A program made the translations under genes and the position numbers. Positions 21,872 through 36,616 of a stretch of 64,000 nt of DNA are shown here, in pieces (position 1 is the first letter of the stretch; every line of letters begins with the position of its first letter). The DNA is from Hyphomicrobiales bacterium (GTDB lineage: Bacteria > Pseudomonadota > Alphaproteobacteria > Rhizobiales > Rhodobiaceae). The notes below the pieces were generated by a model. The model was not told the DNA's origin. It saw nothing but the letters and a program-made list of their open reading frames with translations, and searched no databases. The stretch spans positions 1 through 64,000 of the forward strand of contig PKTR01000001.1 in NCBI GenBank assembly GCA_002869065.1, given 5' to 3'.

Positions 21872-22441
21872 ATGACGGATTCTGCTGCGACCGGCGCAGG
21901 GCGCCCGTTGCAAGAACGTCCTGCCGGGTCCGGCAAGGACGGCTTTTCCTTTCAGCGATTTGTATTGACCTGGGGCGGTCTCTTCATTGTCTGGATGATG
22001 CTGGTTGCCAGCTTCGACGCCGTCGAGATCGCGACCGGCATCGTCGTCGCCGGTTTCGTCGCGGCGCTGTCTGTCGGACATCTCGCGCTGCTTGACGACA
22101 TCATCCTGACGCCGCTGCTGCCGTTCCATCTGGCACGTTACTTCCTGCTGTTCTTCCGCGAGCTGATCCGGGCAAACCTCGATGTCGCCGCCCGCGTCGT
22201 GGCGCCCAGCGTCGACATCACGCCGGAGATCGTCGAGGTGCACACCGAGCTGCACTCCGATCTCGGCAAGTTGTGGCTCGCCAACAGCATCACGCTGACG
22301 CCGGGCACGCTGACCATCGACATCGAGGACCAGACCCTCAAGGTGCACTGGATCGACGTCAGCGCCGGTACGGATACGGCCGTGGCGACGCGCGAAATCG
22401 CCGCCAGGTTCGAAGCCGCTCTGAAGGAGTTCCTGAAATGA
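21872..22441 (+). CDS. Mrp antiporter subunit E-like (MbhA/MbxA position)
   Basis: This is the first gene of a fourteen-gene operon for an ion-translocating membrane complex. The 189-residue protein has a polar N-terminus, two membrane helices (about 30-75) and a C-terminal soluble domain with LWLANSITLTPGTLTIDI, the hallmark of MrpE/MnhE. In energy-converting hydrogenases of the Mbh type this is subunit A. It is needed for assembly of the Na+/H+ antiporter module rather than for ion conduction itself. The stop overlaps the next start (ATGA). No convincing promoter was seen in the roughly 280 bases upstream. Confidence 0.9.
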   Translation: MTDSAATGAGRPLQERPAGSGKDGFSFQRFVLTWGGLFIVWMMLVASFDAVEIATGIVVAGFVAALSVGHLALLDDIILTPLLPFHLARYFLLFFRELIRANLDVAARVVAPSVDITPEIVEVHTELHSDLGKLWLANSITLTPGTLTIDIEDQTLKVHWIDVSAGTDTAVATREIAARFEAALKEFLK

Positions 22442-22713
22442 GCGCCGACGTCAGTTTCCTTCAGGTCATTGCCTTCGTGCTGGTCGCCGCCGGCGTGCTG
22501 CTCGGCATGCTGCGGCTCGTGCTCGGCCCCACACTGCCTGACCGGGTGGTCGCCGCCGACACGATGGCCGTCATCACAACCGCCGCGCTCGCCTGGGTCG
22601 CATTGTGGACCGGCAGCAGCCTTTATCTCGATATCGCTCTAGTCTATGGCGCGCTCGCCTTCATCGGCGTTGTCGCAATCGCCCGGGCGATCGAACGCAA
22701 GGAGGGCGAATGA
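22438..22713 (+). CDS. Mrp antiporter subunit F-like (MbhB/MbxB position)
   Basis: A 91-residue protein with three membrane helices and the MrpF/MnhF signature LRLVLGPTLPDRVVAAD between helices one and two. Its ATG overlaps the previous stop and GGAG lies about nine bases upstream. In Mbh-type complexes this is subunit B. Like E and G it packs against the sodium/proton module; it has no redox cofactor. Confidence 0.92.
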   Translation: MSADVSFLQVIAFVLVAAGVLLGMLRLVLGPTLPDRVVAADTMAVITTAALAWVALWTGSSLYLDIALVYGALAFIGVVAIARAIERKEGE

Positions 22714-23045
22714 TGGAAGCCCTTGGCTCAATCGCCGCCATCGTCGGCGACATCTTTTTGGTCATCGGCGCGGTATTTCTGTTCCTCAGCGCGCTTGGCC
22801 TCGTGCGCATGCCTGACGTCTTCAACCGCATCCAGGCCGGCACCAAGGCCGCGACGCTCGGCACCGTCGCGCTGCTTGTCGGTATCGGCTTCCACCATCC
22901 CGAATGGTGGTCGAAGCTGGTTCTGATCGCGATGTTCGTGCTGGTGACCTCGCCGGTCGGTTCCTCGACCATCGCCCGCGCAGCCCTCACCGTTCACGTG
23001 CCCTTCTGGCACCGCAAGGACAGCGGAAAGGAGACGTCACAGTGA
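22710..23045 (+). CDS. Mrp antiporter subunit G-like (MbhC/MbxC position)
   Basis: A 111-residue protein with three membrane helices. The MrpG/MnhG motif is present around LGLVRMPDVFNRIQAGTKAA and VLVTSPVGSSTIARAA. It starts with a double ATG inside the previous stop, with GGAGGG just upstream. In Mbh-type complexes this is subunit C. It is part of the ion-translocating module. Confidence 0.92.
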   Translation: MMEALGSIAAIVGDIFLVIGAVFLFLSALGLVRMPDVFNRIQAGTKAATLGTVALLVGIGFHHPEWWSKLVLIAMFVLVTSPVGSSTIARAALTVHVPFWHRKDSGKETSQ

Positions 23046-23302
23046 TCGTCGCCGTTCATATCGCCGTCATCGTCATGCTGATCGCCGCCGTCGCGGTGGT
23101 CGTATTGCGTTCCTATCTCGCCGCCGTCGTCGCCCTGTCGGTCGTCTCGCTTGCCCTGTCGGTGATCTTCGCGCTGTTGCGCGCGCCCGATGTTGCGCTG
23201 GCCGAAGCCGCCGTCGGCGCCGGCCTCACCGGCCTTTTGATGGCGCTTGCCGCCCGTCGCGTCGGCCTGTGGCCGAAAGACGACGAAAGCAAGGAGGGCT
23301 GA
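23042..23302 (+). CDS. MbhD-like subunit (DUF4040)
   Basis: An 86-residue protein of three membrane helices that corresponds to the C-terminal region of MrpA and to stand-alone MbhD. The family motif is RAPDVALAEAAVGAGLTGLL. The start is a GTG within the previous stop (GTGA), with GGAG eight bases upstream; no ATG gives the full first helix. Its presence as a separate protein is typical of hydrogenase-related complexes and not of ordinary Mrp antiporters, where it is fused to MrpA. Confidence 0.9.
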   Translation: MIVAVHIAVIVMLIAAVAVVVLRSYLAAVVALSVVSLALSVIFALLRAPDVALAEAAVGAGLTGLLMALAARRVGLWPKDDESKEG

Positions 23303-23305
23303 GCC

Positions 23306-24004
23306 ATGCACGGACACGCCCGCGCCGTCACCACGGTCATCTTCCTCGTAGGTATCGGTATCCTTCTCTACGCCATCATGCAGGCGGTTCCGCTCGGCCA
23401 GGCGCCGATGCAGGTCGGCCAGGCGATCGCCGCGCGCGCCGCGGAAGAAACCGGCGCCGCCAACATCGTCGCCGCCATCCTGCTCGGCTATCGCGGCTTC
23501 GACACGCTCGGCGAAGTGACGATCTTGTTCGTCGCCGCAACCGCCGCCGGTCTTGTGCTCTCGGGCGCCGGTGCCGGTGAGGCGCAGACGCGGCCCTCGG
23601 GCTACATCCTGCGCGTCGCCGCCTACATGCTGTTTCCCTTCCTGCTGATGCTTGGCGCCTACATCATCCTGCACGGCCATCTGACGCCGGGCGGTGGTTT
23701 CCAGGGCGGCGCGATCCTAGCCGCGGCCTTCTTCGTGCCGTTGCTCGCCAATCCGGCAAGCCCGCTGAACCACACCGTCGCGATGGTGGTCGAAGGTTTC
23801 GCCGGCGCGGCCTTCGTCCTCATCGGCATCGTCAGCCTCGGCTGGGGCGAGGCGTTCCTGACGCCGTTCCTCGGTCACGGCACGCTCGGCTCGCTGGCCT
23901 CCGCCGGCAGCCTGCCGCTTCTCTACCTCGCAATCGGCCTCAAGGTCGGGTCGGAACTTGCCGGCCTGATCGACCGGGTCGCCGGAAATGGAGCGGTGCA
24001 ATGA
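23306..24004 (+). CDS. MbhE-MrpB (MbhF) fusion subunit
   Basis: Two subunits appear joined in one 232-residue protein. The N-terminal part (about residues 1-95, with GYRGFDTLGEVTILF) matches MbhE, the last segment of MrpA. The rest (from about residue 98, with LRVAAYMLFPFLLMLGAYII and HLTPGGGFQGGAI) is MrpB/MnhB, i.e. MbhF. In Pyrococcus Mbh these are separate genes. Six or more membrane helices are visible. It forms part of the ion-translocating arm and is linked to the next gene by an ATGA overlap. Confidence 0.88.
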   Translation: MHGHARAVTTVIFLVGIGILLYAIMQAVPLGQAPMQVGQAIAARAAEETGAANIVAAILLGYRGFDTLGEVTILFVAATAAGLVLSGAGAGEAQTRPSGYILRVAAYMLFPFLLMLGAYIILHGHLTPGGGFQGGAILAAAFFVPLLANPASPLNHTVAMVVEGFAGAAFVLIGIVSLGWGEAFLTPFLGHGTLGSLASAGSLPLLYLAIGLKVGSELAGLIDRVAGNGAVQ

Positions 24005-24492
24005 CCGGTCTTTTCCCCTCTGACGGCGAACTGCTGCAAATCGCGCTCTATGGCGGCGCGGTCGGCCTGCTGCTGGTCGGCCTCTACGGCATGGTCGCCG
24101 AACGCAACCTGATGCGCATCCTGCTCGGGCTGGCGCTGGTCGAAGCCGGCGTCAACATGTTCCTCGTCGCGGTCGGTTTCCGCGCCGAAGCCGTCGCGCC
24201 GATCCTGACCGGCGAAACCTCCGGTCCGATGGTCGACCCGCTGCCGCAGGCGCTGGTGCTCACCGCCATCGTCATCGGCGTCGGCGTGCTCGCCTTCGGC
24301 CTCGCGCTCGCCATCAAGGCCAAGGCCGTCTGCAACACGCTCGATGTGCAGGAAATGGCTGCAATCATCGCCAAGGACACAGACGACGTGCCGGTGCCGC
24401 CGGACTTGTCGCCGGCCAAGCACCCGGTCGAGCCGACCGCACCGGTTCCGGTCGCGGGCCGCACCGTCGCATCCGAGGGAGGCGCGTCATGA
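24001..24492 (+). CDS. MrpC/NuoK-like subunit (MbhG/MbxG position)
   Basis: Three membrane helices in residues 15-110 contain GLYGMVAERNLMRILLGLALVEAGVN (in part), the MrpC/NuoK signature with the Glu in helix two (VEAGVN) that is important for ion transfer in NuoK. The second part, after PLPQALVLTAIVIGVG, carries the MrpC-type third helix. A soluble tail of about 50 residues rich in Pro and Val follows, longer than in NuoK. Both ends overlap neighbours by four bases. Confidence 0.92.
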   Translation: MTGLFPSDGELLQIALYGGAVGLLLVGLYGMVAERNLMRILLGLALVEAGVNMFLVAVGFRAEAVAPILTGETSGPMVDPLPQALVLTAIVIGVGVLAFGLALAIKAKAVCNTLDVQEMAAIIAKDTDDVPVPPDLSPAKHPVEPTAPVPVAGRTVASEGGAS

Positions 24493-25946
24493 GCTTCGGT
24501 CCAAACGGCATCGCGCTGGCGATCGCCATCCCGCTTCTCGCTGCCTTCCTGCTGCCGATCGTTGCCCGCCTCGGCGAGGCTGCCGGCCGCATCTGGGGTC
24601 TTGCCGCGACCCTCGTCGCGCTCATCATCGCGCTCGGCATTTACGGCGATGCAAGCACTGCGCCGCAGGTCACCGCGCTCGGCGGTTTCGCACCGCCGCT
24701 CGGCATCGTGCTTTATGCCGACACGCTGGCGTCCATCTTCCTCGTCGCGCTTGTCATCGGCGTGCTGATGTTCTGGCCGCGCGGTGCGGCCGCCGGAACC
24801 CGCGCCTATACGCTGATGCTCGTCCTGCTCGCCGGTGGCAGCGGTCTGGTGCTGTCCGGCGATCTGTTCAACATCTACGTCTTCTACGAGATCGTCGCGG
24901 TTGCCTCCTACGGCCTCGTCGCCAGCGGCAATTCGCGGGCCAGCATCGCTGCGGCCGCCCGCTACGTGATCCTCAGCGCAGCCGGTTCGGCGATGGCGCT
25001 GCTTGGCATTGCGCTTGTCTATGCCGCAGCCGGCACGCTCAACCTTGCCGACCTTGCGACGCTGTCGAGCGAACGCCTGAGCGGTCCGCTCGGTTTGTCG
25101 GCCTTCCTGCTGATCGTCATCGGCTTTGGCGTCAAGGCGGAGCTGTTCCCGGTCAACTCCTGGGTGCCGGAGGTCTACGCGTCCGCCCCGGTGCCGGTGA
25201 CCGCGCTGCTTGCCGGCGTCGTCTCCAAGCTCGCGATGATCGTCATTCTGCGCCTGCTGGTGCTCGTCTTCAACACGCCCGAGGCGCTCAGCCTCTTGCT
25301 GGTGCTCGGTGTGCTCGGCGTCATCGCCGGCGAACTCGCCGCCTATCGCAGCGGCGACCTGAAGCGGGTGTTCGCCTATTCCTCGATCGCCCAGCTCGGG
25401 CTGGTCGCGATCGCCTTCTCGATCCCCGGAGAGGCCGGCGTTGTGGCCGGACTTGCGCTTGCTCTTCATCACCTCGTGGTCAAGCCGGCCTTTTTCGCGC
25501 TCACGGTGCGCTGGGCGGGACCGATTGCCGGTCTTGCCGGTGCCATCAAGGCCTCGCCGCTCGCCGCCGCCATCTTCTTCCTGATGGCGCTGTCGATCAT
25601 CGGCGTGCCGCCGCTGCCCGGCTTCTGGGCCAAGTACCTGCTGATCGGCGGCGCCATTGCCACCGGTAGCGCGGCCTACGGTCTGGCTATCGCGGTGGTG
25701 CTGATCGCCACCGTGATCGAGGCGGCCTATCTGTTCCGCATCGCGCTGGTTCTCTATCGCAAGCCGGCCGAGACGGTCGCGCCGCGCTTCAAATTCGCCG
25801 AACTGGCGCCCGGTCTTCTGCTCGGCGCCGTGGTGATCATCGCGGCTGTCGCCGTGATCCCGCTCGGCGATGGTCTGATGGCCGCGGCGAATGAGGCGGC
25901 CGATGCCAGCCTCTACGTCACGCGCACTCTCGGCGGAGGACAATGA
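24489..25946 (+). CDS. MrpD/NuoN-like antiporter subunit (MbhH/MbxH position)
   Basis: A 485-residue, roughly fourteen-helix proton/sodium-pumping subunit. Conserved features of the family are present: the Glu in FNIYVFYEIVAVASYGL (helix 5) and the Lys in GFGVKAELFPVNSWVPEVYA (helix 7), the pair that drives ion transfer in NuoL/M/N and MrpA/D. It is the first of two antiporter-like subunits in the operon. It begins within the mrpC-like stop, and the second antiporter-like gene starts five bases after it ends. Confidence 0.93.
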   Translation: MSFGPNGIALAIAIPLLAAFLLPIVARLGEAAGRIWGLAATLVALIIALGIYGDASTAPQVTALGGFAPPLGIVLYADTLASIFLVALVIGVLMFWPRGAAAGTRAYTLMLVLLAGGSGLVLSGDLFNIYVFYEIVAVASYGLVASGNSRASIAAAARYVILSAAGSAMALLGIALVYAAAGTLNLADLATLSSERLSGPLGLSAFLLIVIGFGVKAELFPVNSWVPEVYASAPVPVTALLAGVVSKLAMIVILRLLVLVFNTPEALSLLLVLGVLGVIAGELAAYRSGDLKRVFAYSSIAQLGLVAIAFSIPGEAGVVAGLALALHHLVVKPAFFALTVRWAGPIAGLAGAIKASPLAAAIFFLMALSIIGVPPLPGFWAKYLLIGGAIATGSAAYGLAIAVVLIATVIEAAYLFRIALVLYRKPAETVAPRFKFAELAPGLLLGAVVIIAAVAVIPLGDGLMAAANEAADASLYVTRTLGGGQ

Positions 25947-25950
25947 CGCC

Positions 25951-27831
25951 ATGAGCCTTCTCGACATCCTCCTCGTATTCATGGCGATTTCGACGGTCGT
26001 CCTCTATCTCGGCGGCAATCGACGCGGCATGGGCGTGCTCGCGACCGCGGTTTACGCCGCGGCGGTCGTCCTGGTGGCGATGATCGGCACGCAGATCTCA
26101 GGCGCCGATGTGAGCGTGCCGTCCGCGCTTGCCTTCACCGTCTTCGGCGCGCCGCTTGGCTGGGCAATCGATGGCCTTGGCTGGTTCTTTGCGCTGCTGA
26201 CCACCGGTGCGGCCTTCTTCTCCGCCTTCTACATGACCGGTCCGTGGGGCGCGGCACAGAAGCATCCCGGCTTCCAGCGTGGCACGCTGGCGCTCAACGT
26301 GCTGGTCATGCTGCTGCTCGTTTCCAGCGCCGACCTCCTCAGCCTCTTCATCGGCTGGGAATTCGTCAGCTGGTCGGCCTATCTGATGATGACGCAGCTC
26401 GGCGGCGCGGCCGCCCGCGCGGCGCTGCGCTACCTGCTCTATGCAATGGCCGGCGCGATGGCGCTGTTCGCCGCGATCATGATCGTCCACGCCGAGACCG
26501 GCAGCTTCGCCTATGCCGACCTGCAGGCGGCGGTTATGGCCATGCCGACTGCGACGCTGTGGTTGCTCGCGGCGCTCTTTGCCTTCGGCTTCGGCGTCAA
26601 GATGGCGCTCGTTCCGACCCATCTGTGGCAGGCGCCGGCCTATTCCGAGACGCCGGGCGCTTCGTCTGCCTTCCTCAACGCGGTGTCGGCTCGCATGGGC
26701 CTGTTCGCGCTGATCGTTACCCTGGTCAAGCTGCTCGGCTTTGCCGCACTGTCGAGCCTCGTCGTGCCGGTCGCCGGCTTCGACATGCGCGACATCCTGT
26801 TGTGGATCGCCGCCATCACCATGGTGGTGCCGACCTATATCGCCCTGCAGCAGACCGATGCGCGCATGCTGTTGACCTGGCACGGCATCGGCCAGGGCGG
26901 CTACATGTTGCTCGGCATTCTCGTCGCGACCCCGCTTGGTGTCTCCGGCGGTCTCTTGCATGTCTTCAACTACGCCACCTATCAGGCGGCGCTGTTCCTG
27001 ACCGTGACGGCGGTGATCTACCGCACCGGCACGTCGGACCTCGACCGTCTCGGCGGCCTTATCAATCGCATGCCGTTCTCCTACGTCACGCTGCTGATGG
27101 GCATCATCGGCCTTGCCGGCCTGCCGCCGATGAACGGCTTCGTGTCGAAATGGATGATCTACAAGTCGCTGATCGTCGAACAGCAGCCGCTCCTGTCGAT
27201 CGCCGCCTTCGTCGCCACGCTCGGCACCATCCTCAGCGTCTACAAGCTGATCCACAACATCTTCCTCGGCCAGCTGCGCAAGGAGCACTGGGAGGTCAAG
27301 GAAGCGCCGTGGCAGATGGTGGTTCCCATGCTGGCGCTCGGCGGTATCGGGTTCATCACCGGCTGGATGCCGGGACTGGCGCTCGACCTTGTCGACAAGG
27401 CCCAGGCCGCGATTGGCGTCGCCCCGCTCGCCCACCATCTCGGCGGGGTCGAGCTTGCCAACGGCTCGCTCAACATGCTGTGGGTGGTTAGCGTCCTGCT
27501 CGGCGCCATCGGCGTCGGCGCGGTGATCTTCTACTTCCTCGGCAATCGCCACATTGGCGTGCACCAGTACGACAACTACGCCGGCGGCCACTTCCTGTCG
27601 TCGGATATCCGCTACCACTACAGCCATGAATTCTATCCCGGCCTCAACCGGGTGATCGGCCCGTGGTATCGCGGCACGGTGGTCAAGGCCGAACGCAGCC
27701 TCGAGACGTTGCTGCAGTTCCTCGCCTCGGCCTGGCGCGGTTTCTACCAGACCGCCTACACGCCGCTTTATCTCGTCATCGTCGTGGCGCTCGGCCTTGC
27801 ATGGGCCAGCTTCACCGGAATTCAGGGCTGA
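25951..27831 (+). CDS. Second antiporter-like subunit, NuoL/NuoM type (MbxH' position)
   Basis: A 626-residue antiporter-like subunit, longer than the one before and distinct from it. The conserved Glu lies in LFIGWEFVSWSAYL and the conserved Lys in FGFGVKMALVPTHLW; a second Lys region is in GLPPMNGFVSKWMIY. It extends past the usual fourteen helices with a soluble stretch (about 540-590) and a last membrane helix near residues 600-620, recalling the C-terminal extension of NuoL. GGAGGA precedes the start by ten bases. Having two such subunits in a row is the arrangement I recall for archaeal mbx (H and H') and not for mbh, which has one. Confidence 0.92.
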   Translation: MSLLDILLVFMAISTVVLYLGGNRRGMGVLATAVYAAAVVLVAMIGTQISGADVSVPSALAFTVFGAPLGWAIDGLGWFFALLTTGAAFFSAFYMTGPWGAAQKHPGFQRGTLALNVLVMLLLVSSADLLSLFIGWEFVSWSAYLMMTQLGGAAARAALRYLLYAMAGAMALFAAIMIVHAETGSFAYADLQAAVMAMPTATLWLLAALFAFGFGVKMALVPTHLWQAPAYSETPGASSAFLNAVSARMGLFALIVTLVKLLGFAALSSLVVPVAGFDMRDILLWIAAITMVVPTYIALQQTDARMLLTWHGIGQGGYMLLGILVATPLGVSGGLLHVFNYATYQAALFLTVTAVIYRTGTSDLDRLGGLINRMPFSYVTLLMGIIGLAGLPPMNGFVSKWMIYKSLIVEQQPLLSIAAFVATLGTILSVYKLIHNIFLGQLRKEHWEVKEAPWQMVVPMLALGGIGFITGWMPGLALDLVDKAQAAIGVAPLAHHLGGVELANGSLNMLWVVSVLLGAIGVGAVIFYFLGNRHIGVHQYDNYAGGHFLSSDIRYHYSHEFYPGLNRVIGPWYRGTVVKAERSLETLLQFLASAWRGFYQTAYTPLYLVIVVALGLAWASFTGIQG

Positions 27832-27845
27832 GGAGGGCAGGACTC

Positions 27846-28745
27846 ATGGAACTCGTTGCAGATCTCGTCCTGATGCCGCTGGTGGCCTTCGTGGTCGGCC
27901 TCGGGCTCGTGCTGATGGCCCGCCGCGTGCGCGCCAAGATCGAACGCCGCGTCGGCCCGCCGGTGCTGCAGCCGATCTACGACATCGTCAAGCTCTACGC
28001 CAAGAAGACGCAGATCAGTCACGGCGTGATGCACGATCTCGCCATCGTGCTCCTGCTCGGCGGCTTCATCACCGCGGAAATCTTCCTGCCGGTGCCGGGC
28101 ATGGATGGCCTTGCCGCGCAGGGCGATCTCATCACGCTCGTCTATCTGATGATGGTGCCGATGCTCGGCATGGCACTCGGCGTCGGTGCCTGCGCCAACC
28201 CGAACGGTTCGATCGGCATTTCCCGCGCGCTGACCGCCATGCTGGCCTATGACGTGCCCTACGTGGTCGCTGTCGTCGGCGCGTGCATTCTCTACCGCTC
28301 GACCAATCTCGCCGATATCGTCGCCATCCAGCAGGCCGGCGGCGTCGCGACCTGGGGCCTGTTCACGATGCCGCTTCTGGCCGTCGCCGGACTGCTCGCC
28401 ATGCACGCCATGCTCGGCAAGGAGCCGTTCGAGATCTACGTCGCGCCGGCTGAAATCGCCACCGGCCCGATGGTCGAGATGAGCGGCAAATACATGGGCG
28501 CGCTGTTCGTCATGCAGTGCTTCCAGTTTTACACGGTGGGCGTGCTCTACACGACGCTGTTCCTCGGCGGCGGTGAGAACTGGCTCACCTTCCTCGCCAA
28601 GGTGTTCGGCGTGATCTTCATCTCGGTTGCCGTGACCAACGTTTATGGCCGCTACAAGACCGAGGACATGATCCGCTGGCAGTGGAAATGGCCGACCGGC
28701 ATCGCCCTTGTCGGGCTGGCGCTGGTCATGACCAGCATCAATTAG
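27846..28745 (+). CDS. NuoH-like membrane anchor subunit (MbhM/MbxM)
   Basis: A 299-residue, eight-helix protein of the complex I subunit 1 family, which joins the redox arm to the membrane arm. Family motifs include RVGPPVLQPIYDIVKLYAKK near the N-terminus and the acidic loop KEPFEIYVAPAEIATGPMVE, which corresponds to the charged loop lining the quinone or substrate chamber in NuoH. The ATG follows GAGGAGGG. In archaeal mbx this subunit lies directly after H', as it does here. Confidence 0.93.
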   Translation: MELVADLVLMPLVAFVVGLGLVLMARRVRAKIERRVGPPVLQPIYDIVKLYAKKTQISHGVMHDLAIVLLLGGFITAEIFLPVPGMDGLAAQGDLITLVYLMMVPMLGMALGVGACANPNGSIGISRALTAMLAYDVPYVVAVVGACILYRSTNLADIVAIQQAGGVATWGLFTMPLLAVAGLLAMHAMLGKEPFEIYVAPAEIATGPMVEMSGKYMGALFVMQCFQFYTVGVLYTTLFLGGGENWLTFLAKVFGVIFISVAVTNVYGRYKTEDMIRWQWKWPTGIALVGLALVMTSIN

Positions 28746-28757
28746 GGAGAGACAGGA

Positions 28758-29507
28758 ATGACCGAACGGCTTCCCACGCTTGCCCCCGGTTCGGATGGCT
28801 GTCCGACCATCGACGCCGAGGAGAAATCCGTCTGGCGCACGGTCATGGATCGCTTCGCCGACCATTGCCGCTCACGCTCCCTGTTCGTGCTGCACTACTG
28901 CACCGGCTGCGGCGCAATCGAACTGCCGCCGACGATCACCTCGCGCTTCGACATGGAGCGGGTCGGCGTGTCGCCGATGGTCACGCCGCGTCAGGCCGAC
29001 ATCCTGCTGATCACCGGCTATCTGTCGATCAAGACGCTGAAGCGCGTGATCCTGTCCTACGAGCAGATGCAATCGCCGAAATACGTGCTCGGCTTCGGTT
29101 CGTGCACCATCAATGGCGGCATGTACTGGAACTCCTATGCGACCGTGAAGCAGCTCAACCAGTACATCCCGGTTGACGGCTTCATCGCCGGCTGCATGCC
29201 GCGCCCGGAAGCTGTGCAGCAGGTCTTTTTCGACCTGATGAAGCGGATCGACGCCGGCGAGGCCAATGCCTGGCAGGATTACTACCGCAACTACGACCAC
29301 TATCTCGGCAACCAGATGGCGCTGTTCGGCGAGGACTGGCACACCCCGACCGACGTGCTCGGCGAGGCCGAACACTACGGCTATCTCGGCGAGAACTCGC
29401 GCGGCCAGCACACCGCGATCCTCGAAAAACGCGCCGACTGGGCGGTCGACAGCGTGCCCGAGATCTATCCCGAGCATGGCGACAACGAGAAGAAGCTGAT
29501 CCGATGA
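28758..29507 (+). CDS. NuoB-like small subunit with one 4Fe-4S cluster (MbhJ/MbxJ)
   Basis: This is the electron-transfer subunit next to the catalytic subunit. Four cysteines suit one proximal 4Fe-4S cluster: Cys48 and Cys51 in CTGC, Cys116 in GSC and Cys146 in GCMPRPEAV. The first pair is CxxC as in hydrogenase small subunits, not the adjacent Cys-Cys of complex I NuoB. At 249 residues it is longer than MbhJ or NuoB; the extra C-terminal region (about 170-249), with many Tyr, His and Asp, has no family I recognise. The stop overlaps the NuoC-like start. Confidence 0.92.
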   Translation: MTERLPTLAPGSDGCPTIDAEEKSVWRTVMDRFADHCRSRSLFVLHYCTGCGAIELPPTITSRFDMERVGVSPMVTPRQADILLITGYLSIKTLKRVILSYEQMQSPKYVLGFGSCTINGGMYWNSYATVKQLNQYIPVDGFIAGCMPRPEAVQQVFFDLMKRIDAGEANAWQDYYRNYDHYLGNQMALFGEDWHTPTDVLGEAEHYGYLGENSRGQHTAILEKRADWAVDSVPEIYPEHGDNEKKLIR

Positions 29508-30043
29508 ATAGCGCCGCATCCAGCATGCCGGCCCATCTGGCCGACGTAATCCGCGAGACCCCCGGCGTCACCATGAAGCCGCAGGGCCCGCGCCGTAGCC
29601 GCGTCGACGTCAAGCCCGAGGCGCTGTCGAGCGTCCTCAATCTGCTCAAAGGGCAGGGCGGTTTCCTGCACCTGTCGTCGATCTCCTGCGTCGACTGGCC
29701 CCAGACCGAGGAATTCGAGCTCGTCTATCACCTGTGGTCCTACGAGCTGAAGACGCTGGTTTCGGCCCATGTCTTCATCCCGAAAGAACCCGGCCGCTTC
29801 ATTTCGGTCTACGATATCCACGCGCCGGCCGGCTTCTTCGAGCGCGACATCCACGAGATGTTCGGCATCCATTTCGAAGGCGCGCCGAACCTCAACAAGT
29901 TCATTCTGACGAGCTGGGGCGGTCCGCCGCCGATGCTGAAATCCTTCGATACGCGTGGCTATGTCGAGGAGACCTACACCTGGGTCGACTACCGGCCCGA
30001 CTGGCTGAAGGACGTCGAGGCCAAGGGAGGCGGAGTGGAATAA
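29504..30043 (+). CDS. NuoC-like 30-kDa subunit (MbhK/MbxK)
   Basis: A 179-residue complex I 30-kDa family protein. The signature ERDIHEMFGIHFEG is near the centre-to-end of the domain. It binds no cofactor and packs against the NuoD-like catalytic subunit. It stays separate from the D-like subunit here, unlike the NuoCD fusion of E. coli. Its stop shares one base with the next start. Confidence 0.92.
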   Translation: MNSAASSMPAHLADVIRETPGVTMKPQGPRRSRVDVKPEALSSVLNLLKGQGGFLHLSSISCVDWPQTEEFELVYHLWSYELKTLVSAHVFIPKEPGRFISVYDIHAPAGFFERDIHEMFGIHFEGAPNLNKFILTSWGGPPPMLKSFDTRGYVEETYTWVDYRPDWLKDVEAKGGGVE

Positions 30044-31185
30044 TGCGCCCCGAAAACTACCGCCCGGTCGAACACCCCGCGAGCCATGAATACGAGCTCT
30101 ATTTCGGGCCGAATCATCCCGGTATCGAAGGCAACTACGCTATTCGCGTGCGCCTGATGGGTGACGTGATCCAGGAGGCCGTCGCCGACGGCGGCTATCT
30201 GCACCGCGGCTTCGAGAAAATCATGGAAGAGCGGCTGTGGATCCAGAACGTCGCGCTGGTGCCGCGCATCTGCGTGCCGGATCCGGTGCCGATGGAAGAG
30301 ACCTATTCGCGCGCCGTTGAAATGCTCGGCGGGCTTGAAGTGCCCATCCGCGCCCAGTGGATCCGCGTCATGATGCTGGAGATGTCGCGCATCTGCGCTC
30401 ACCTCTTCACCTTTGGCGGCAACGCGGCGACCATCGGCCTCTACACCAATATGTTCTGGGGCATCTCGACCCGTGACCTGTTCCTCGACCTGTTCGAGGA
30501 AATCACCGGCGCGCGCGTCTACCACATGTACATCACTCCGGGCGGTGTGCGCCGCGATCTGCCCGATGGCATCCTTGATAAATTGTCCGACCTGCTCGAT
30601 CTGGTCGAAGGTCGCGCGCCGGAATTCGACGACCTGTTCTTCGATTCCTCCGTCGTCATCAACCGCGCCACAAATTGCGGCTATATCAGCCAGGAAAACG
30701 CGCTGGCGTGGGGCGTTACGGGACCGAACCTGCGTGCCTCCGGCCTGCCGTTCGACGTGCGCCGCGATGACCCGTACCTGACCTACGACGAGATCGAGTT
30801 CGACGTGCCGACCGAGACCGGCGGCGACGCGCTCGCCCGCATGCAGGTGCGCCGGGCGGAGATGTTCCAGTCGATCCGTATCCTTCGACAGGTGATCGAG
30901 AAATTGCGTTCGGTGAGGGGCCCGATCCGGTGTCCGCTGCCCAATCCGCTCGCCTGGAACGTGCCGACGGGCGACGCCTATGCCCGCGTCGAATCCTCGA
31001 AGGGCGAACTGGGCTTTTTCGTTGTGTCCAATGGCGGCGACAAGCCGTGGCGGGTGCATGTGCGCGGCCCCTCGCAGATGCATGCGGTCCAGGTTTTGGA
31101 ACGCACGCTTCAGGGGGCCCGGCTGGAAGACATCGCGCAGATCATGTTCTCGCTCGATGCCTGTCCGCCGGAAGTGGATCGCTGA
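30043..31185 (+). CDS. NuoD/NiFe-hydrogenase-type large subunit with altered metal motifs (MbxL-like)
   Basis: This 380-residue catalytic-subunit homologue has the fold-specific GPNHPG near residue 22, RGFEKIMEER near 55-64 and a C-terminus exactly where NiFe subunits are processed. The two metal-binding motifs are altered. The N-terminal RICxxCxxP of hydrogenases reads RICVPDPVP (Cys77, Asp80), and the C-terminal DPCxxC motif reads DACPPEVDR (Cys374, Glu377). Each keeps its first cysteine and has an acid in place of the second. Complex I NuoD normally has neither cysteine. A NiFe centre is therefore unlikely, and so is standard quinone chemistry. The sequence stops at the position of hydrogenase cleavage with no extension, and no hyp maturation genes are nearby. 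Confidence 0.92.
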   Translation: MRPENYRPVEHPASHEYELYFGPNHPGIEGNYAIRVRLMGDVIQEAVADGGYLHRGFEKIMEERLWIQNVALVPRICVPDPVPMEETYSRAVEMLGGLEVPIRAQWIRVMMLEMSRICAHLFTFGGNAATIGLYTNMFWGISTRDLFLDLFEEITGARVYHMYITPGGVRRDLPDGILDKLSDLLDLVEGRAPEFDDLFFDSSVVINRATNCGYISQENALAWGVTGPNLRASGLPFDVRRDDPYLTYDEIEFDVPTETGGDALARMQVRRAEMFQSIRILRQVIEKLRSVRGPIRCPLPNPLAWNVPTGDAYARVESSKGELGFFVVSNGGDKPWRVHVRGPSQMHAVQVLERTLQGARLEDIAQIMFSLDACPPEVDR

Positions 31186-31197
31186 GGAGGGTTAGCG

Positions 31198-33030
31198 ATG
31201 GGTGATATCAATCCAAAGCCGAAGGGCAGCTTCCTGAAGCCGCTCAAGTCGCTGTCTTTCCTGTTCAAGCCGCCGATCACGCTGCCGATGGAGCCGCGTC
31301 CGGCCGCCGAGAACTATCGCGGCTTTCATTTGAACGATTGGGAGAAATGCATCGGTTGCGGCACGTGCCAGGAAATCTGCGACAACGCCGCCATCCGCAT
31401 GATCTCGATCCCCGACCTGCCGTCGGATCCGGTAAAGGGCGTCAAGCCGCGCCGTCCGGCGATCGATTACGGTCGCTGCTGCTGGTGCGCGCTGTGCGTC
31501 GACATCTGTCCGACCGGCTCTCTGTCACTGTCGCGCGAATACATCCATGTCAGCGCCGATCTCGACACCTTCTTCATCCTGCCGGACGAGAAGGGGATGC
31601 ACGGCCTCGGCTTCCCGAAAGGCTGGGCAAAGAGCGACCACTCCGACCTGCTTGACCTCGAGCGCCAGGAAATGCCGGAACTGCCGGCTGAAAGCCGCTC
31701 CGACAATTTCGACGAGATCGCCGGTGGATACGACGAACAGACGGCGCTGTTCGAGGCCTCGCGCTGCATCCAGTGCGGCATGTGCCACGATGCCTGCCCG
31801 GCCAACATGCATGCGCCGGAATACATCCGCGCCATCTGGAAGGGCGACAAGACCGAAGCCGTCGAACAGATCTACCGCACCAACCCGTTCCCGAGCGTGT
31901 GCGGCCGCATCTGTACCCACCGCTGCGAAACGGCCTGCTCGATCGGCCGCCGCGGCGATCCGGTCGCGATCCAATGGCTGAAGCGCTACGTCATGGATGC
32001 GGTTGACCACGAGATGGTCAAGAAGATCGCGACGAAGGACGTGGCAAAGAACAAGACCGGCAAGAAGGTCGCCATTATCGGCTCCGGCCCGGCCGGGCTG
32101 ACCGCAGCCTTCGATCTCGCCAAGCTCGGTCACGAGGTGACGGTTTACGAGTCGAAGCCGGAAGCCGGCGGCATGATGCGCTACGGCATCCCGGAATATC
32201 GGCTGCCCTATGACCGGCTCGACGACGACATCAACGTCATCAAGGCGGCTGGTGTTGAGATCAAATGCAACGCGGGCATTGGCGACAAGCTGCCGATGAC
32301 CAAGCTGCGCTCCGACAACGACGCGGTGCTCGTTGCGACCGGCCTCGGTATGGGCCGCTCAACCCGGGTGCCCGGCACCGACCATGAAAAGGTCGCGTCC
32401 GCCGTCGATCTCTTGGAAAAGATCACCCGCAACCAGCGCTTCGCCGTGCCGAAAAAGGCCGTCGTCATCGGTGGCGGCAACGTCGCCTTCGACATCGCCC
32501 GTTCGCTTGCCCGCCTGCAGGCGCAGAAGAAGGACGGCGTCATCGACGTCACCCTCGTTGCGCTCGAAGCCCGCGATGGCATGCTGGCCGACGAGGTCGA
32601 GGTGATCGAGTCCGCTGAAGAAGGACTGACCCTTTACAACAGCCGCGGTCCGAAGCAGGTCGTCGTCGAGAACGGCAAGCTGAAGGGGCTCGAAACGGTC
32701 AAATGCCTGTCGATCTTCGACGACGAAGGCCGCTTCCACCCGCAATATGACGAAGACGATCTCGTGCTGCACGAGGCGGATTTGGTCGTCGAGGCCATCG
32801 GTCAGGCGTCGGACACGGCGTTCCTCGGTGAGGAGCTGGTCGAAAAGCTCGAATGGCAGCGCGGCCGGTTGAAGATCGACGAAGTCGGCAGGACGTCGGA
32901 ACCGGGCCTGTGGGCCGCCGGCGACATGGTTCAGGGACCGGACGTTATCCACGCAATCGCAGCCGGTCATCGCACGGCGGCGAGCATCCACGCCTTCGTG
33001 ATGGGCGAGGCAGAGGCGGAGAAGGCGTAA
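31198..33030 (+). CDS. Fusion of NuoI-like ferredoxin subunit and GltD/NfnB-like FAD oxidoreductase
   Basis: The 610-residue protein joins two electron-transfer modules. Residues 45-110 carry two 4Fe-4S clusters: Cys51, 54, 57, 61 and Cys94, 97, 100, 104, as in NuoI/MbhN. Residues 185-250 carry the GltD-type cysteine set CIQCGMCHDAC (190-200) and CGRICTHRCETAC (235-247). An FAD Rossmann motif GSGPAG (295-300) and an NAD(P)H motif GGGN (425-428) follow, with GDMVQGPDVI near the end. It would take electrons from NAD(P)H, or exchange with ferredoxin, and pass them to the NuoB-like cluster. It stands at the mbxN position, where archaeal operons have only the ferredoxin part. No NuoEFG genes are present, so this is probably the sole electron-input subunit. 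Confidence 0.9.
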   Translation: MGDINPKPKGSFLKPLKSLSFLFKPPITLPMEPRPAAENYRGFHLNDWEKCIGCGTCQEICDNAAIRMISIPDLPSDPVKGVKPRRPAIDYGRCCWCALCVDICPTGSLSLSREYIHVSADLDTFFILPDEKGMHGLGFPKGWAKSDHSDLLDLERQEMPELPAESRSDNFDEIAGGYDEQTALFEASRCIQCGMCHDACPANMHAPEYIRAIWKGDKTEAVEQIYRTNPFPSVCGRICTHRCETACSIGRRGDPVAIQWLKRYVMDAVDHEMVKKIATKDVAKNKTGKKVAIIGSGPAGLTAAFDLAKLGHEVTVYESKPEAGGMMRYGIPEYRLPYDRLDDDINVIKAAGVEIKCNAGIGDKLPMTKLRSDNDAVLVATGLGMGRSTRVPGTDHEKVASAVDLLEKITRNQRFAVPKKAVVIGGGNVAFDIARSLARLQAQKKDGVIDVTLVALEARDGMLADEVEVIESAEEGLTLYNSRGPKQVVVENGKLKGLETVKCLSIFDDEGRFHPQYDEDDLVLHEADLVVEAIGQASDTAFLGEELVEKLEWQRGRLKIDEVGRTSEPGLWAAGDMVQGPDVIHAIAAGHRTAASIHAFVMGEAEAEKA

Positions 33031-33542
33031 TGAGCGAACACGGCGAAGGCCATATCAGCGGCCGCGAAAAACTGCAGCGCGCGAAGACGGTCGAAGAGAT
33101 CCTCGACACTGCAATGGGCTTCGAGAAGACCGCCGAGACCTTCTATGCGGGTCTGAAGGATCGGGTGAACAAGCCGATCCGCGAACTGGTCGTCGAACTT
33201 GCCGAGGAAGAGGCCGAACACTACGAGCTGTTCGCGCGGGTGCGCGATCACGCTGATACCGTCGCACATCTGAAGGACCTGATCGCGACACCGCCGAACG
33301 ACCACAAGTTCGCCGACTACGTCATGATGCCCGATCTCGGCGAGAACCCGGACGATCAGGCGATCCTGCAATATGCGCTGGCCCGCGAACACGCGGCCTA
33401 CGAGCAGTATTCGGCGCTGGCCGAAACGGCGCCCGAGGGCGCCTTGCGCGATCTGTTCCAGTTCCTCGCCGACGAGGAATTGCGCCACAAGGGCGAGCTG
33501 GAAAAGCGCTACTACGAGATCGTCCATTCCGGCGGTGTCTGA
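33030..33542 (+). CDS. Rubrerythrin/ferritin-like diiron protein
   Basis: A 170-residue four-helix-bundle protein with the diiron ligand pattern of rubrerythrins: Glu32 in FEKTAETF, Glu61-x-x-His64, Glu120 in REHAAYEQY and Glu150-x-x-His153 in DEELRHK. There is no rubredoxin domain (no cysteine pairs), so electrons must come from a partner. The start codon shares a base with the stop of the NuoI-GltD fusion, so it is translated with the membrane complex. A peroxidase role, or sensing or scavenging oxygen species around the FeS subunits, is inferred from the family. It is the last gene of the operon. Confidence 0.87.
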   Translation: MSEHGEGHISGREKLQRAKTVEEILDTAMGFEKTAETFYAGLKDRVNKPIRELVVELAEEEAEHYELFARVRDHADTVAHLKDLIATPPNDHKFADYVMMPDLGENPDDQAILQYALAREHAAYEQYSALAETAPEGALRDLFQFLADEELRHKGELEKRYYEIVHSGGV

Positions 33543-33951: not shown

Positions 33952-34012
33952 CAGATGCGACATTCCTTCACTCGCGGCCTTCGTGCCGGCCACCACACGG
34001 GGGCCGCGCTCA

Positions 34013-34789
34013 ATGCTTAAGGGCAACGGCGATCCGGTTCTGTCCTCGCAATCTCTGAAGGCGCTGCTCGGCATTCGCGAGCTCGTCTACAACGGTACCA
34101 TGCGCCCCGGCGAGCGCATGTCGGAACTCGCGCTGGTCGATCGCCTCGGCCTGTCGCGCACGCCGGTGCGTGCCGCGCTTGCCCGTCTTGAACTCGAAGG
34201 TCTGCTCGAAGCGCTGCCGTCCGGCGGCTATGCCGTGCGCGCGTTTTCCGATGCCGATGTCAGCGATGCGATCGAACTGCGCGGCGTGCTGGAGGGGACG
34301 GCCGCGCGCCTCGCCGCCGAACGCGGTGTGGCCCCGAGCGTGATGCGCGAGGCCCAGGATCTGCTGGCGCAGCTCGCGAACACCCTCGACGGCAAGGGCG
34401 GCCTGCAGCAGTTCGAGACCTACATGCGGCTCAACGAAGATTTCCACGAATTGCTGGCCAAGATGTCAGGCAGCGTGATGCTGCAGCGCGAGCTGGAACG
34501 CCTCGCCGTTCTGCCCTTTGCTTCGCCGAGTGCGTTTGTCGATGCCCACGCCGCGATGCCCGGCTTCGAGGACGTGCTGGCCGTTGCGCACAATCATCAC
34601 CGTGCGCTCATCGAGGCAATCGAAAATCGTGAAGGCGCCCGCGCCGAAGCCCTGGGACGGGAACATGCCCGGCTGGCGCGCCGTACCCTGGATCGTGTGC
34701 TCGAAAGCGCAGAACTGCGCAGCCGCGTACCGGGTCTTGCCCTGTTGGCCGATGATGGACAGCGGGACAATGAGGGAACTGAGGACTGA
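34013..34789 (+). CDS. GntR-family regulator, FCD domain
   Basis: The N-terminal winged helix (about residues 10-75) has the GntR pattern GERMSELALVDRLGLSRTPVRAALARLELEGLL. The C-terminal all-helical FCD domain (about 85-225) includes the RxxxE-type start (IELRGVLEGTAARLAAER), LNEDFHELL and HNHHRALIEAI, whose His residues usually bind a metal that holds a carboxylate ligand. It stands just before a TRAP transporter on the same strand and most likely controls it in response to the imported acid. The ATG at 34013 is chosen; an in-frame GTG at 33983 is possible, and neither has a strong ribosome site. Confidence 0.9.
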   Translation: MLKGNGDPVLSSQSLKALLGIRELVYNGTMRPGERMSELALVDRLGLSRTPVRAALARLELEGLLEALPSGGYAVRAFSDADVSDAIELRGVLEGTAARLAAERGVAPSVMREAQDLLAQLANTLDGKGGLQQFETYMRLNEDFHELLAKMSGSVMLQRELERLAVLPFASPSAFVDAHAAMPGFEDVLAVAHNHHRALIEAIENREGARAEALGREHARLARRTLDRVLESAELRSRVPGLALLADDGQRDNEGTED

Positions 34790-34798
34790 ACTGGAATA

Positions 34799-34816
34799 GG
34801 GACGCAATTGCGTCCC
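34799..34816. promoter_or_regulatory. Perfect 18-bp palindrome before dctP
   Basis: GGGACGCAATTGCGTCCC is self-complementary and lies between the regulator stop and the dctP ribosome site. As RNA it forms a 7-bp stem with an AATT loop. It could be an operator or an intercistronic processing hairpin. Confidence 0.45.
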
Positions 34817-34844
34817 CGAAACTGCAACTGGGAGGAGCAGGAAT

Positions 34845-35879
34845 ATGAAAAGAAGGACCTTCATGCTGGGGTCGCTTATGGCGGCCACCCTCATGACCGT
34901 GACCCCGGCCGCGGCACAGGAAGTCACCATGCGGCTGCATCAGCTGCTGCCGCCGCAGGCGTCGGTGCCGAAAATGGCCATCACGCCGTGGATCGAGACG
35001 ATCGAGAAGGCCTCCAACGGCCGCATCAAGATCGAGCACTATCCGGCCATGCAGCTCGGCGGCAAGCCGCCCTCGCTGTTCGACCAGGCCAAGGATGGTG
35101 TCGTCGACATCATCTGGACCGTTCTCGGCTACACCCCGGGCCGTTTCCCGCGCACCGAGGCTTTCGAACTGCCGTTCATGGTCACCAACGCGACCGCGAC
35201 CTCGCTGGCGTTCCAGGAATACGTCGAAAAGAACGCCATGGACGAGTTCAAGGACGTTCATCCGATCGTCTTCCACACTCATGGTCCGGGCCTCATCCAT
35301 GCCAAGGGCAGCGGCGTCACCAAGCTTGAGGACATGCAGGGCCTGAAGCTGCGCGGTCCGACCCGCATCGTCACCAAGATGCTTGAGAAGCTCGGCGCCA
35401 CCGCCGTCGGCATGCCGGTCCCGGCTGTGCCGGAATCGCTGTCGAAGGGCGTCATCGACGGCGCGGTCATTCCCTGGGAAGTCACCCCGGCGCTCAAGAT
35501 CACCGAGCTGACCAACACCCACACCGGCTTCAGCGGTGACCATGGCCTCTACACCGCGACCTTCGCGATGGTGATGAACAAGGACACCTACAACAATCTG
35601 CCGGACGATCTGAAGAAGATCATCGACGACAATTCCGGCATGGCTGCTGCCAAGCTGTTCGGTGGCGCCATGGACAAGGGTGACGTCATCGGCCTCGGCA
35701 TCGCCGAGAAGTCCGGCAACACCATCCTGACCCTCGACGATGCCGAAACGGCGCGCTGGAAAGAAGTCGCCGCGTCGGTCGAAGCCGAGTGGATCGAGGA
35801 AATGAAGGGCAAGGGTATCGACGCGGCCAGCCTCGTTGCTCAGGCCAAGGAACTGGTCGCGAAGTACACCGCCCAGTAA
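34845..35879 (+). CDS. dctP: TRAP transporter substrate-binding protein
   Basis: This is the periplasmic receptor of a tripartite ATP-independent transporter. A Sec signal peptide with a basic start (MKRRTF) ends at AAAQ (about residue 25). The mature part is a DctP-fold protein with FPRTEAFELPFMV near residue 105, the helix and loop around LKLRGPTRIVTKMLEKLGA with the Arg that usually holds the substrate carboxylate, and ALKITELTNTHT. GGAGGAG precedes the ATG. The ligand is an organic acid by family; which one cannot be read. It forms an operon with dctQ and dctM. Confidence 0.92.
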   Translation: MKRRTFMLGSLMAATLMTVTPAAAQEVTMRLHQLLPPQASVPKMAITPWIETIEKASNGRIKIEHYPAMQLGGKPPSLFDQAKDGVVDIIWTVLGYTPGRFPRTEAFELPFMVTNATATSLAFQEYVEKNAMDEFKDVHPIVFHTHGPGLIHAKGSGVTKLEDMQGLKLRGPTRIVTKMLEKLGATAVGMPVPAVPESLSKGVIDGAVIPWEVTPALKITELTNTHTGFSGDHGLYTATFAMVMNKDTYNNLPDDLKKIIDDNSGMAAAKLFGGAMDKGDVIGLGIAEKSGNTILTLDDAETARWKEVAASVEAEWIEEMKGKGIDAASLVAQAKELVAKYTAQ

Positions 35880-36020
35880 CGAACATGGAGCCGGCCGCCT
35901 CGTGGCCGGCTCCCTCTCACGCGGCCGGATACAGCGAAAGCCGTATCCGGCTCACTCTTGCGGCGCATATGCGCGGCCAGTCCAGATCATGAAGTCGAAA
36001 TTTCTGGGGCGGAGTTTACG

Positions 36021-36614
36021 GTGATCGAACGGATCGACAGGGCAGTCCACAAGATTGCTTACCTGACGGCATTGCTCGGCGGGCTGGTGCTCTCCGCGCT
36101 CATGCTGATGACGACAATAAGCATCATTGGCCGCGAACTCGGCGCCATGGGGCATCGTCTCTTGCGGACGGAAAGCGGTTTCCTGCATTCCCTCGGCGAG
36201 GCGATCAATTCCGTGGGCTTCGCGCCGCTGCCCGGCGACTTCGAGCTTGTCAGCGTCGGAATGGCGTTCTGCATCTTCGCCTTTCTGCCCTGGTGCCAGA
36301 TCCGGCGCGGCCATGTCACTGTCGATATCTTTCTCTCCAAGGTCGGCACGCGCACCAACTATCTGATCGACGTTATCGCCAATGCGCTGATGACTGCCGC
36401 CATCGCCGTCGTGTCCTGGGGCATATACGCCGGCATGCTCGACAAGATGGCTTACAACGAGACGTCGTTCATTCTGCAGTTTCCGATCTGGTGGGCTTTC
36501 GCGGCTTGCCTGGTTGGTTCCATCATCTTCACTCTGATCTGCCTGTACACGGTCTGGCGGAGCCTGCGCGAGTATCGCTCCGGCCGTCATGTCGTGCTCT
36601 CCGGGGGGCGTTAA
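36021..36614 (+). CDS. dctQ: TRAP transporter small membrane subunit
   Basis: A 197-residue, four-helix DctQ-family protein. The family motif is around FCIFAFLPWCQIRRGHVTVDIF. The start is a GTG with GGAG six bases upstream; a longer frame to 35958 adds residues that would disturb the first helix. It sits about 140 bases after dctP and two bases before dctM. It has a longer loop between helices one and two (about 45-80) than most DctQ proteins. Confidence 0.9.
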   Translation: MIERIDRAVHKIAYLTALLGGLVLSALMLMTTISIIGRELGAMGHRLLRTESGFLHSLGEAINSVGFAPLPGDFELVSVGMAFCIFAFLPWCQIRRGHVTVDIFLSKVGTRTNYLIDVIANALMTAAIAVVSWGIYAGMLDKMAYNETSFILQFPIWWAFAACLVGSIIFTLICLYTVWRSLREYRSGRHVVLSGGR

Positions 36615-36616
36615 TC

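Follow-up and report, generated by a model that had tools for sequence, protein, structure and literature searches.

An MBS-type operon with a predicted NAD(H)-type input module in Alpha- and Gammaproteobacteria

The archaeal membrane-bound sulfane reductase (MBS) uses ferredoxin, and mbx genes are known in the letter order A-B-C-D-(E/F)-G-H-H'-M-J-K-L-N. We have found this order in a 64,000-nucleotide stretch of DNA from a Hyphomicrobiales bacterium (the whole stretch is called the window below), where 14 plus-strand genes span positions 21872–33542. We propose that these genes probably encode a reversible ion-translocating NAD(H):sulfane-sulfur oxidoreductase of sulfur oxidisers that use the dissimilatory sulfite reductase (Dsr) pathway in reverse. 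The closest described system, MBS of Pyrococcus furiosus (formerly Mbx; PDB 6U8Y), is reported to have 13 subunits, with 41 kJ per two electrons and two protons, and has been discussed as an intermediate linking membrane hydrogenases with complex I (PMC7684303). According to the same account, subunit L of MBS lacks the quinone residues His38 and Tyr87 and has two of the four nickel cysteines left; the proximal cluster of subunit J has three cysteine ligands and one free iron, the proposed site of polysulfide cleavage. Lack of the counterpart of MbhL Glu21, which is required for proton reduction, is a further mark of MBS.

Bacterial mbx operons of 12 or 13 genes are described for Thermotoga and Thermoanaerobacter, and mbxA of T. 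maritima is reported to be induced by sulfur (PMC9431562, PMC2246101, PMC3608648, PMC4596419). Older proposals took Mbx for a ferredoxin:NAD(P)+ oxidoreductase (PMC3608648, PMC4596419). In contrast to the carriers of the present operon, those hosts are fermenters with ferredoxin as the assumed donor. As for prior characterisation, a point raised by the original prediction made from the window, a putative Mrp-Mbx complex has been named in Candidatus Endoriftia, the sulfur-oxidising gammaproteobacterial symbiont of Riftia; it is listed there as MBX with function and direction in vivo unknown (PMC11636981), and is probably of the same type as the window complex. The passages of the Endoriftia genome paper retrieved with the terms Mrp, Rnf and sulfur reduction include none on Mbx (PMC9796809).

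In the window the operon runs MrpE, MrpF, MrpG, MbhD, MbhE-MrpB fusion, MrpC, antiporter 1, antiporter 2, NuoH, NuoB, NuoC, NuoD, N fusion and a rubrerythrin-like protein. Each of the 14 proteins scores above the curated cut-off of its Pfam family, the weakest matches being MbhE (38.5 bits, cut-off 27) and Rubrerythrin (43.6 bits, cut-off 22.8), which bears out the families and the order originally named. The redox subunits M, J, K, L and N adjoin the Mrp genes in one operon, unlike the situation in a stand-alone Mrp antiporter operon. Subunit set, gene order, doubled H, L and J motifs and the loss of the quinone residues are common to the window and to P. furiosus MBS. In PDB searches with five window proteins, MBS chains came out as the best matches for four of them (L, J, H and H') and for the NuoI part of the fifth, N. 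The parallel with Mbx/Mbs that the original prediction had drawn is supported by gene order, PDB matches, motifs and phylogeny alike.

The nuoD-like subunit L (30043..31185; Complex1_49kDa) scores 369 bits against P. furiosus MBS (6u8y_L), 260 against Thermus complex I and 140 against P. furiosus Mbh. The quinone positions His38 and Tyr87 (Nqo4) are Glu and Val in L of all 41 genomes with an operon of the window's type (type 1, see below), as in MBS. The first cysteine of each nickel motif is kept in all 41 (RICVPDP and LDACPPE[V/I]DR; RICVPDP and LDACPPEVDR in the window; RICVPEP and LDNCPPDIDR in MBS) and the second is Asp or Glu; all four cysteines are present in the controls Mbh, HycE and L054. 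Around MbhL Glu21, where the local alignment is uncertain, an acidic residue aligns nearby in MBS and in the window's relatives alike. An L tree was built from 50 rows, with 18 repeat or near-duplicate rows left out. Its one reference for MBS sits on a long branch, warnings of long branches were issued, and Ehr, Ech and Fpo are not represented. In this tree MBS falls with the window and its relatives on one side of a branch with 100/100 support, while ten complex I rows stand apart at 99/96 and three NiFe hydrogenases at 100/100. Of the phylogenies called for in the original prediction, this one places the NuoD-like protein with MBS, outside complex I and the NiFe hydrogenases. A constrained topology that joined the window group to complex I and separated it from MBS was rejected (p-AU 0.0019); the constrained group had been chosen after an earlier tree (61 of 67 rows) that had no window row, its six omitted rows being five same-genome repeats and L077, which repeats L092.

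The nuoB-like subunit J (28758..29507; Oxidored_q6), which would carry the proximal [4Fe-4S] cluster, scores 209 bits against 6u8y_J and 116 against the next chain. Its motif is CTGCGAIELPP, with SC and GCM motifs for the other cluster cysteines; that of MBS is CTGCGGIEMPP. CTGCGA[I/V]ELPP is found in 44 of 69 rows (some genomes occur twice), three further rows are cut there, and all 8 complex I rows in the alignment have adjacent cysteines, GLACC. Judged by sequence, the catalytic subunits L and J are of MBS type and not of complex I or [NiFe] hydrogenase type, and the proximal cluster of J would have three ligands and one cysteine-free iron. The novel electron acceptor of the original prediction found no support, the testable features of the acceptor site being those of MBS; because of this, sulfane sulfur is the natural guess for the acceptor.

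The difference from MBS appears to lie in the input module and not in the catalytic core, so that the operon is best described as an MBS-type variant and not as plain MBS. N of MBS has 208 residues and is fed by ferredoxin. In the window, the N gene (31198..33030; Fer4, Fer4_20, Pyr_redox_2) encodes a NuoI part fused to a complete flavoprotein of the NfnL/GltD/DsrL family, with motifs for four [4Fe-4S] clusters. The original prediction had rightly called it a NuoI fusion; the partner, left unnamed there, is an NfnL/GltD-type flavoprotein with an NAD(H)-type site. The NuoI part gives 93 bits to MbsN (6u8y_N), the top NuoI-type chain among the 60 shown, and the flavoprotein part matches NfnL-type chains. 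The NuoI and Fer4_20 parts each have cysteine motifs for two [4Fe-4S] clusters; across 14 rows these motifs and the sites for FAD and pyridine nucleotide show little or no variation. With the proximal one in J, the predicted clusters total five.

The sequence YRR at the nucleotide site is reported to mark the NADP-specific DsrL-2 and NfnB (PMC7596348). It is found in none of the 40 type-1 N rows, which have mostly ALE there and also AME, AID, VLE or CLE; because YRR is missing, NAD(H) is the predicted partner of the type-1 fusion. YRR was found in other aligned flavoproteins (L006_18, L106, L107 and L108). The Fer4_20, FAD and NAD(P) sites of the C-terminal domain are common to DsrL and NfnL/NfnB (PMC7596348; 5jca_L). 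Unlike DsrL the window protein is fused to NuoI (it is about 32% identical to the DsrL-like protein of the same genome), and unlike NfnL it has no NfnS partner in the window operon. The NCBIfam model PRK13984 (NF010590, putative oxidoreductase) covers the fusion nearly end to end with 836 bits against a cut-off of 946, and passes its cut-off in one, not singled out, of 14 control genomes; since the model matches nearly the whole length and passes in a control genome, the N fusion is not unique to these operons. Among 284 genomes drawn from the window's class, the fusion was met at E 1e-120 only in the window's own genome. An AlphaFold2 model of the fusion (from 14 rows) has a mean pLDDT (predicted local distance difference test) of 61.6 and values <50 over residues 1–206, which is too low for cluster distances to be judged. 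A GltD-like gene may also stand beside the Thermotoga mbx operon.

The two antiporter-like subunits (both Proton_antipo_M) have their best PDB matches in MBS: subunit H (24489..25946) in 6u8y_H with 216 bits and H' (25951..27831) in 6u8y_X with 174 bits. With pump positions mapped by hand from alignments with the MBS chains, Glu and Lys of H are present in 24 of 24 rows and His in 23, the window protein having all three; in H', Glu and His are kept in all 25 type-1 rows (for the central Lys see below).

A pattern search of 84,980 species genomes, with short patterns that reach close relatives only, yielded 32 loci: 28 of type 1 and four grouping with complex I. Type-1 operons, whose L is 66–84% identical to that of the window, are carried by Magnetospira, Hyphomicrobiaceae, Thiomargarita, Parabeggiatoa, Sedimenticola, Thiolapillus and other Alpha- and Gammaproteobacteria. 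The 41 type-1 loci in other genomes comprise 21 seen whole, 11 cut by contig ends and nine scattered ones from Beggiatoa-type genomes. All 21 whole loci have the 14 genes in the window's order (17 by gene calling; L007, L082, L085 and L091 by tblastn), the synteny that had been suggested as a check. Genes of the relatives were taken from a codon-usage caller, as longest-open-reading-frame calling had picked antisense frames in GC-rich loci. The nine Beggiatoa-type genomes (G448–G456) all carry L plus a nearly full-length N fusion (65–69%); J and K are visible at six of the nine L loci, and the other ten subunits were judged on the L contigs only.

A second type, with L about 44% identical to that of the window, was found in six genomes (G001, G002, G015, G688, G703 and G734). 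The window's two congeners, G001 and G002, have type 2, and type 1 was not found in them. Five of 61 near relatives matched L at 1e-60; the fifth (G028) has a NiFe hydrogenase by motifs. At this locus (L054), from the same order as the window genome, an Mbh/Ech-like operon encodes a large subunit with the full set of four nickel cysteines.

Type-2 operons encode the two antiporter subunits as a single fused protein of about 1045 residues. The N fusion is present in 6/6 loci and a rubrerythrin-like match follows in 5/6 (one cut by a contig end), L092 having another gene there; in L093, MbhD and MrpG are listed in swapped order. Of the two nickel cysteines left in MBS, type-2 L keeps one or none, the first being Cys or Ala and the second Tyr. 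In type-2 J the non-ligand cysteine of MBS is Gly in all 12 rows (six genomes, each twice), although one of the six genomes (two rows) has an extra Cys two places on, next to the first ligand; the three cluster cysteines are retained. Because the non-ligand cysteine is lost and the ligand cysteines are kept, the pattern fits three ligands as the working state, without being proof of it; through the loss of the fourth cysteine, type 2 is also relevant to the proposal that the catalytic cluster of MBS has three ligands.

The complex occurs mostly in genomes with dsrA, which scores over cut-off in 26 of 33 genomes with a type-1 or type-2 complex, and in all five alphaproteobacterial genomes found through L alone (G443–G447). 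In the sample of the window's class the complex is present in 2 of 385 genomes (one being the window's own) and dsrA in six, both carriers among them; in the class of G463 the complex is present in 17 of 369 genomes and dsrA in 117, all 17 carriers among them, with G734 having dsrA only as a fragment below cut-off. Nesting by chance would have values of 0.0002 and 1.4e-9, respectively (1.4e-8 for the latter class minus two genomes met through the operon); as the genomes are related, these are not true probabilities. The L search in the window's class was made at E 1e-100 and type-2 relatives score about 1e-100 to 1e-105, so that type 2 may be undercounted among the 385. At a lower threshold, the four other dsrA genomes of this class gave only 33–35% matches at the level of complex I.

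The window genome (4.04 Mb, 7 contigs) has dsrA at C2:226344, on another contig than the operon. The genes around it fit dsrABEFHCMKLJOPN by size, order and start sequences, names other than dsrA and the DsrL-like gene having been assigned by eye. The DsrL-like protein has a long insertion and no YRR, the pattern of DsrL-1A, which is taken as a mark of sulfur oxidisers (PMC7596348).

Several further features were seen in the loci of relatives. In G449, G452 and G456, where the MBS genes are scattered too, dsrA is in two pieces about 0.7–1.0 kb apart; G456 has the two within a single open frame of 701 residues, as with an in-frame insert, and in G449 and G452 they are in separate frames. In L017 (9412–10764) a gene that by eye is RnfC-like starts 5 bases after L, the next called gene being on the opposite strand. 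RnfC was considered as a substitute NADH module and rejected, as all nine scattered-gene genomes hold the N fusion elsewhere. A hybrid cluster protein-like gene (by eye) stands between K and L in two Beggiatoa-type loci, L011 (8560–9894) and L013 (4478–5785), and in L015 (12023–12325) a second, partial L-like reading frame (100 aa, 73%) follows about 1.4 kb after the full L.

A complex of this kind is already known, as MBS and, by name, as the Mbx of one proteobacterial symbiont; what appears new is the NAD(H)-type module on N and the nesting among dsrA genomes. Compared with MBS, the window operon also has an added rubrerythrin gene and a Lys-to-Arg change in H', taken up below. In the portions of the open-licence PMC literature that were searched, no paper was seen to describe the fusion of N with an NAD(H)-type module, the rubrerythrin gene, the existence of two types or the nesting among genomes with dsrA. 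The studied forms of MBS are from anaerobic thermophiles; here the same gene order is present in reverse-Dsr proteobacteria and is apparently wired to NAD(H), so the complex may connect sulfur chemistry with the supply of NADH in a way not recognised before.

From the subunit set, gene order, MBS-type sites, NAD(H)-type flavoprotein and dsrA association, all observed in the sequences, we infer the following course of the reaction. Electrons would move between NAD(H) and the proximal cluster of J by way of FAD and four [4Fe-4S] clusters, first two in the NfnL-like domain and then two in the NuoI-like domain. At the proximal cluster, S–S bonds would be cleaved or formed, either in polysulfide or in the persulfide or trisulfide of a protein or thiol. 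The change at J would be passed to both antiporter-like subunits and the Mrp module, leading to movement of H+ or Na+. The rubrerythrin-like protein would probably give protection from oxygen or peroxide. Either direction would be useful, as reverse electron transport or as respiration of stored sulfur. Two old questions become directly testable: how electrons pass from sulfane sulfur to NAD(H), or back, in sulfur lithotrophs, and what enzyme is behind internal sulfur respiration in bacteria that store sulfur.

A number of observations weigh against this proposal. The N fusion has Lys at the position of a Glu cluster ligand in NfnB, so one cluster may differ, and YRR is present in two of six type-2 N rows (L092 from G703 and L093 from G734), which are perhaps NADP(H)-linked. 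Arg replaces the central Lys of H' (MbsH' K248) in all 25 type-1 rows, that of the window among them. Among the 33 carriers, dsrA was not found in four (G448, G454, G459 and G470) and is weaker in three: G449 and G452 have dsrA pieces below cut-off, and G462 a dsrB-like match plus an end fragment. Conversely, the complex is missing from 100 of 117 and from four of six dsrA genomes in the two class samples, and the link with dsrA is a correlation among related genomes. Finally, ferredoxin is the donor of archaeal MBS, and the yield from NADH is too small for two pumps under standard conditions. With NADH at −320 mV, its oxidation by sulfur gives about 10 kJ per two electrons (our own arithmetic, standard conditions), and two protons at 160–180 mV cost 31–35 kJ; at high sulfide, therefore, the machine should run towards NADH, and at micromolar sulfide it could run towards sulfide.

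Within the proposal of a reversible enzyme, a tentative possibility is that the ion-motive force drives electrons from sulfide or thiols directly to NAD+, the quinone pool being bypassed, with polysulfide, persulfide or DsrC trisulfide as products. Carriers accompany dsrA and 22 of 27 have a RuBisCO match, so NADH would be needed. If NAD(H) stands in for ferredoxin, the reaction comes close to isoenergetic, and coupling to two pumps would favour the reduction of NAD+ when sulfide is high (deduced from the 41 kJ given in PMC7684303). Co-expression of Endoriftia Mrp-Mbx with the reductive tricarboxylic acid (rTCA) cycle, a carbon fixation pathway (PMC11636981), points the same way. However, DsrL is reported to couple Dsr oxidation to NAD+ already (PMC7596348), and the window genome has a gene for a DsrL-like protein. 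Autotrophy was dropped as a discriminator of direction, since the share with RuBisCO does not distinguish carriers from dsrA genomes that lack the complex (22/27 against 48/53, p 0.29; the 53 are four alphaproteobacteria and the first 49 of 100 gammaproteobacteria in list order). In its most specific form, a sulfide/persulfide:NAD+ oxidoreductase driven by ion-motive force whose three-cysteine [4Fe-4S] cluster forms S–S bonds, the idea is rather doubtful; if true, it would give sulfur lithotrophs a second route of reverse electron transport, around the quinone pool and complex I, with fewer ions per NADH.

Another possibility, also to be held only tentatively, is the opposite flow: NADH would reduce stored sulfur or polysulfide in anoxia with little energy conserved, and the complex would be the internal sulfur respiration enzyme of Beggiatoaceae. 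This is the direction shown for MBS (PMC7684303), several Beggiatoaceae are described as respiring stored sulfur with storage carbon (PMC4959497), and the distribution of L, N, J and K over the nine Beggiatoa-type genomes agrees with it. In Endoriftia the first co-expression neighbours of Mrp-Mbx are reported to lie with the rTCA and not the Calvin–Benson–Bassham cycle, and most Sox and rDSR genes, that is, most sulfur-oxidation genes, with the latter (PMC11636981); the rTCA co-expression, however, fits electron flow to NAD+ too. The driving force from NADH is small, and pumping would need very low sulfide.

It is unlikely that the substrate is protein-bound sulfane (DsrC trisulfide or TusA/DsrE persulfide) instead of free polysulfide, the complex being an accessory of Dsr: the carriers are nested among dsrA genomes, but no linkage was seen, dsr of the window genome being on contig C2. 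When the flanking genes of 43 loci were clustered, no family occurred in >8 loci and none suggested a partner; the two commonest families resemble response regulators/kinases and RND efflux. An odd complex I or an NAD(H):quinone pump is very improbable, for although fold and subunit set overlap, many of the matching NCBIfam models belong to nuo, and L and J exceed the cut-offs of NF004739 (NuoD; 433 against 360) and NF005012 (NuoB), respectively, the Glu/Val pair in place of His38/Tyr87, CTGC instead of CC in J, the tree and an ordinary complex I encoded elsewhere in the window genome (C1:516398) all speak against it.

After start correction the 14 genes overlap by ≤4 bases or are separated by gaps of ≤14 bases. 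The Mrp module begins with mrpE-like (MbsA, 21872..22441; PF01899, MNHE, E 6.8e-36), mrpF-like (MbsB, 22438..22713, start corrected; PF04066, E 1.6e-17) and mrpG-like (MbsC, 22710..23045; PF03334, E 7.2e-25) genes. An mbhD-like gene with a GTG start (MbsD, 23042..23302; PF13244, E 4.5e-18), the mbhE-mrpB fusion (MbsE/F, 23306..24004; PF20501, MbhE, and PF04039, MnhB) and an mrpC-like gene (MbsG, 24001..24492; PF00420, Oxidored_q2, E 1.1e-21) precede the antiporter-like subunits. The nuoH-like membrane anchor (MbsM, 27846..28745; PF00146, NADHdh, E 5e-50) lies between H' and J, and the nuoC-like gene (MbsK, 29504..30043; PF00329, Complex1_30kDa, E 3.2e-26) between J and L.

The last gene encodes the rubrerythrin-like diiron protein (33030..33542; PF02915, E 4.8e-11), in which E32, E61, H64, E120, E150 and H153 are each kept in ≥90% of 32 rows. 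In G403 (L050) the rubrerythrin-like match, right after the N fusion, covers only residues 80–170, the C-terminal half. Directly downstream of the operon, at window positions 33983–37939, there are by eye an apparent GntR-type regulator and a TRAP transporter.

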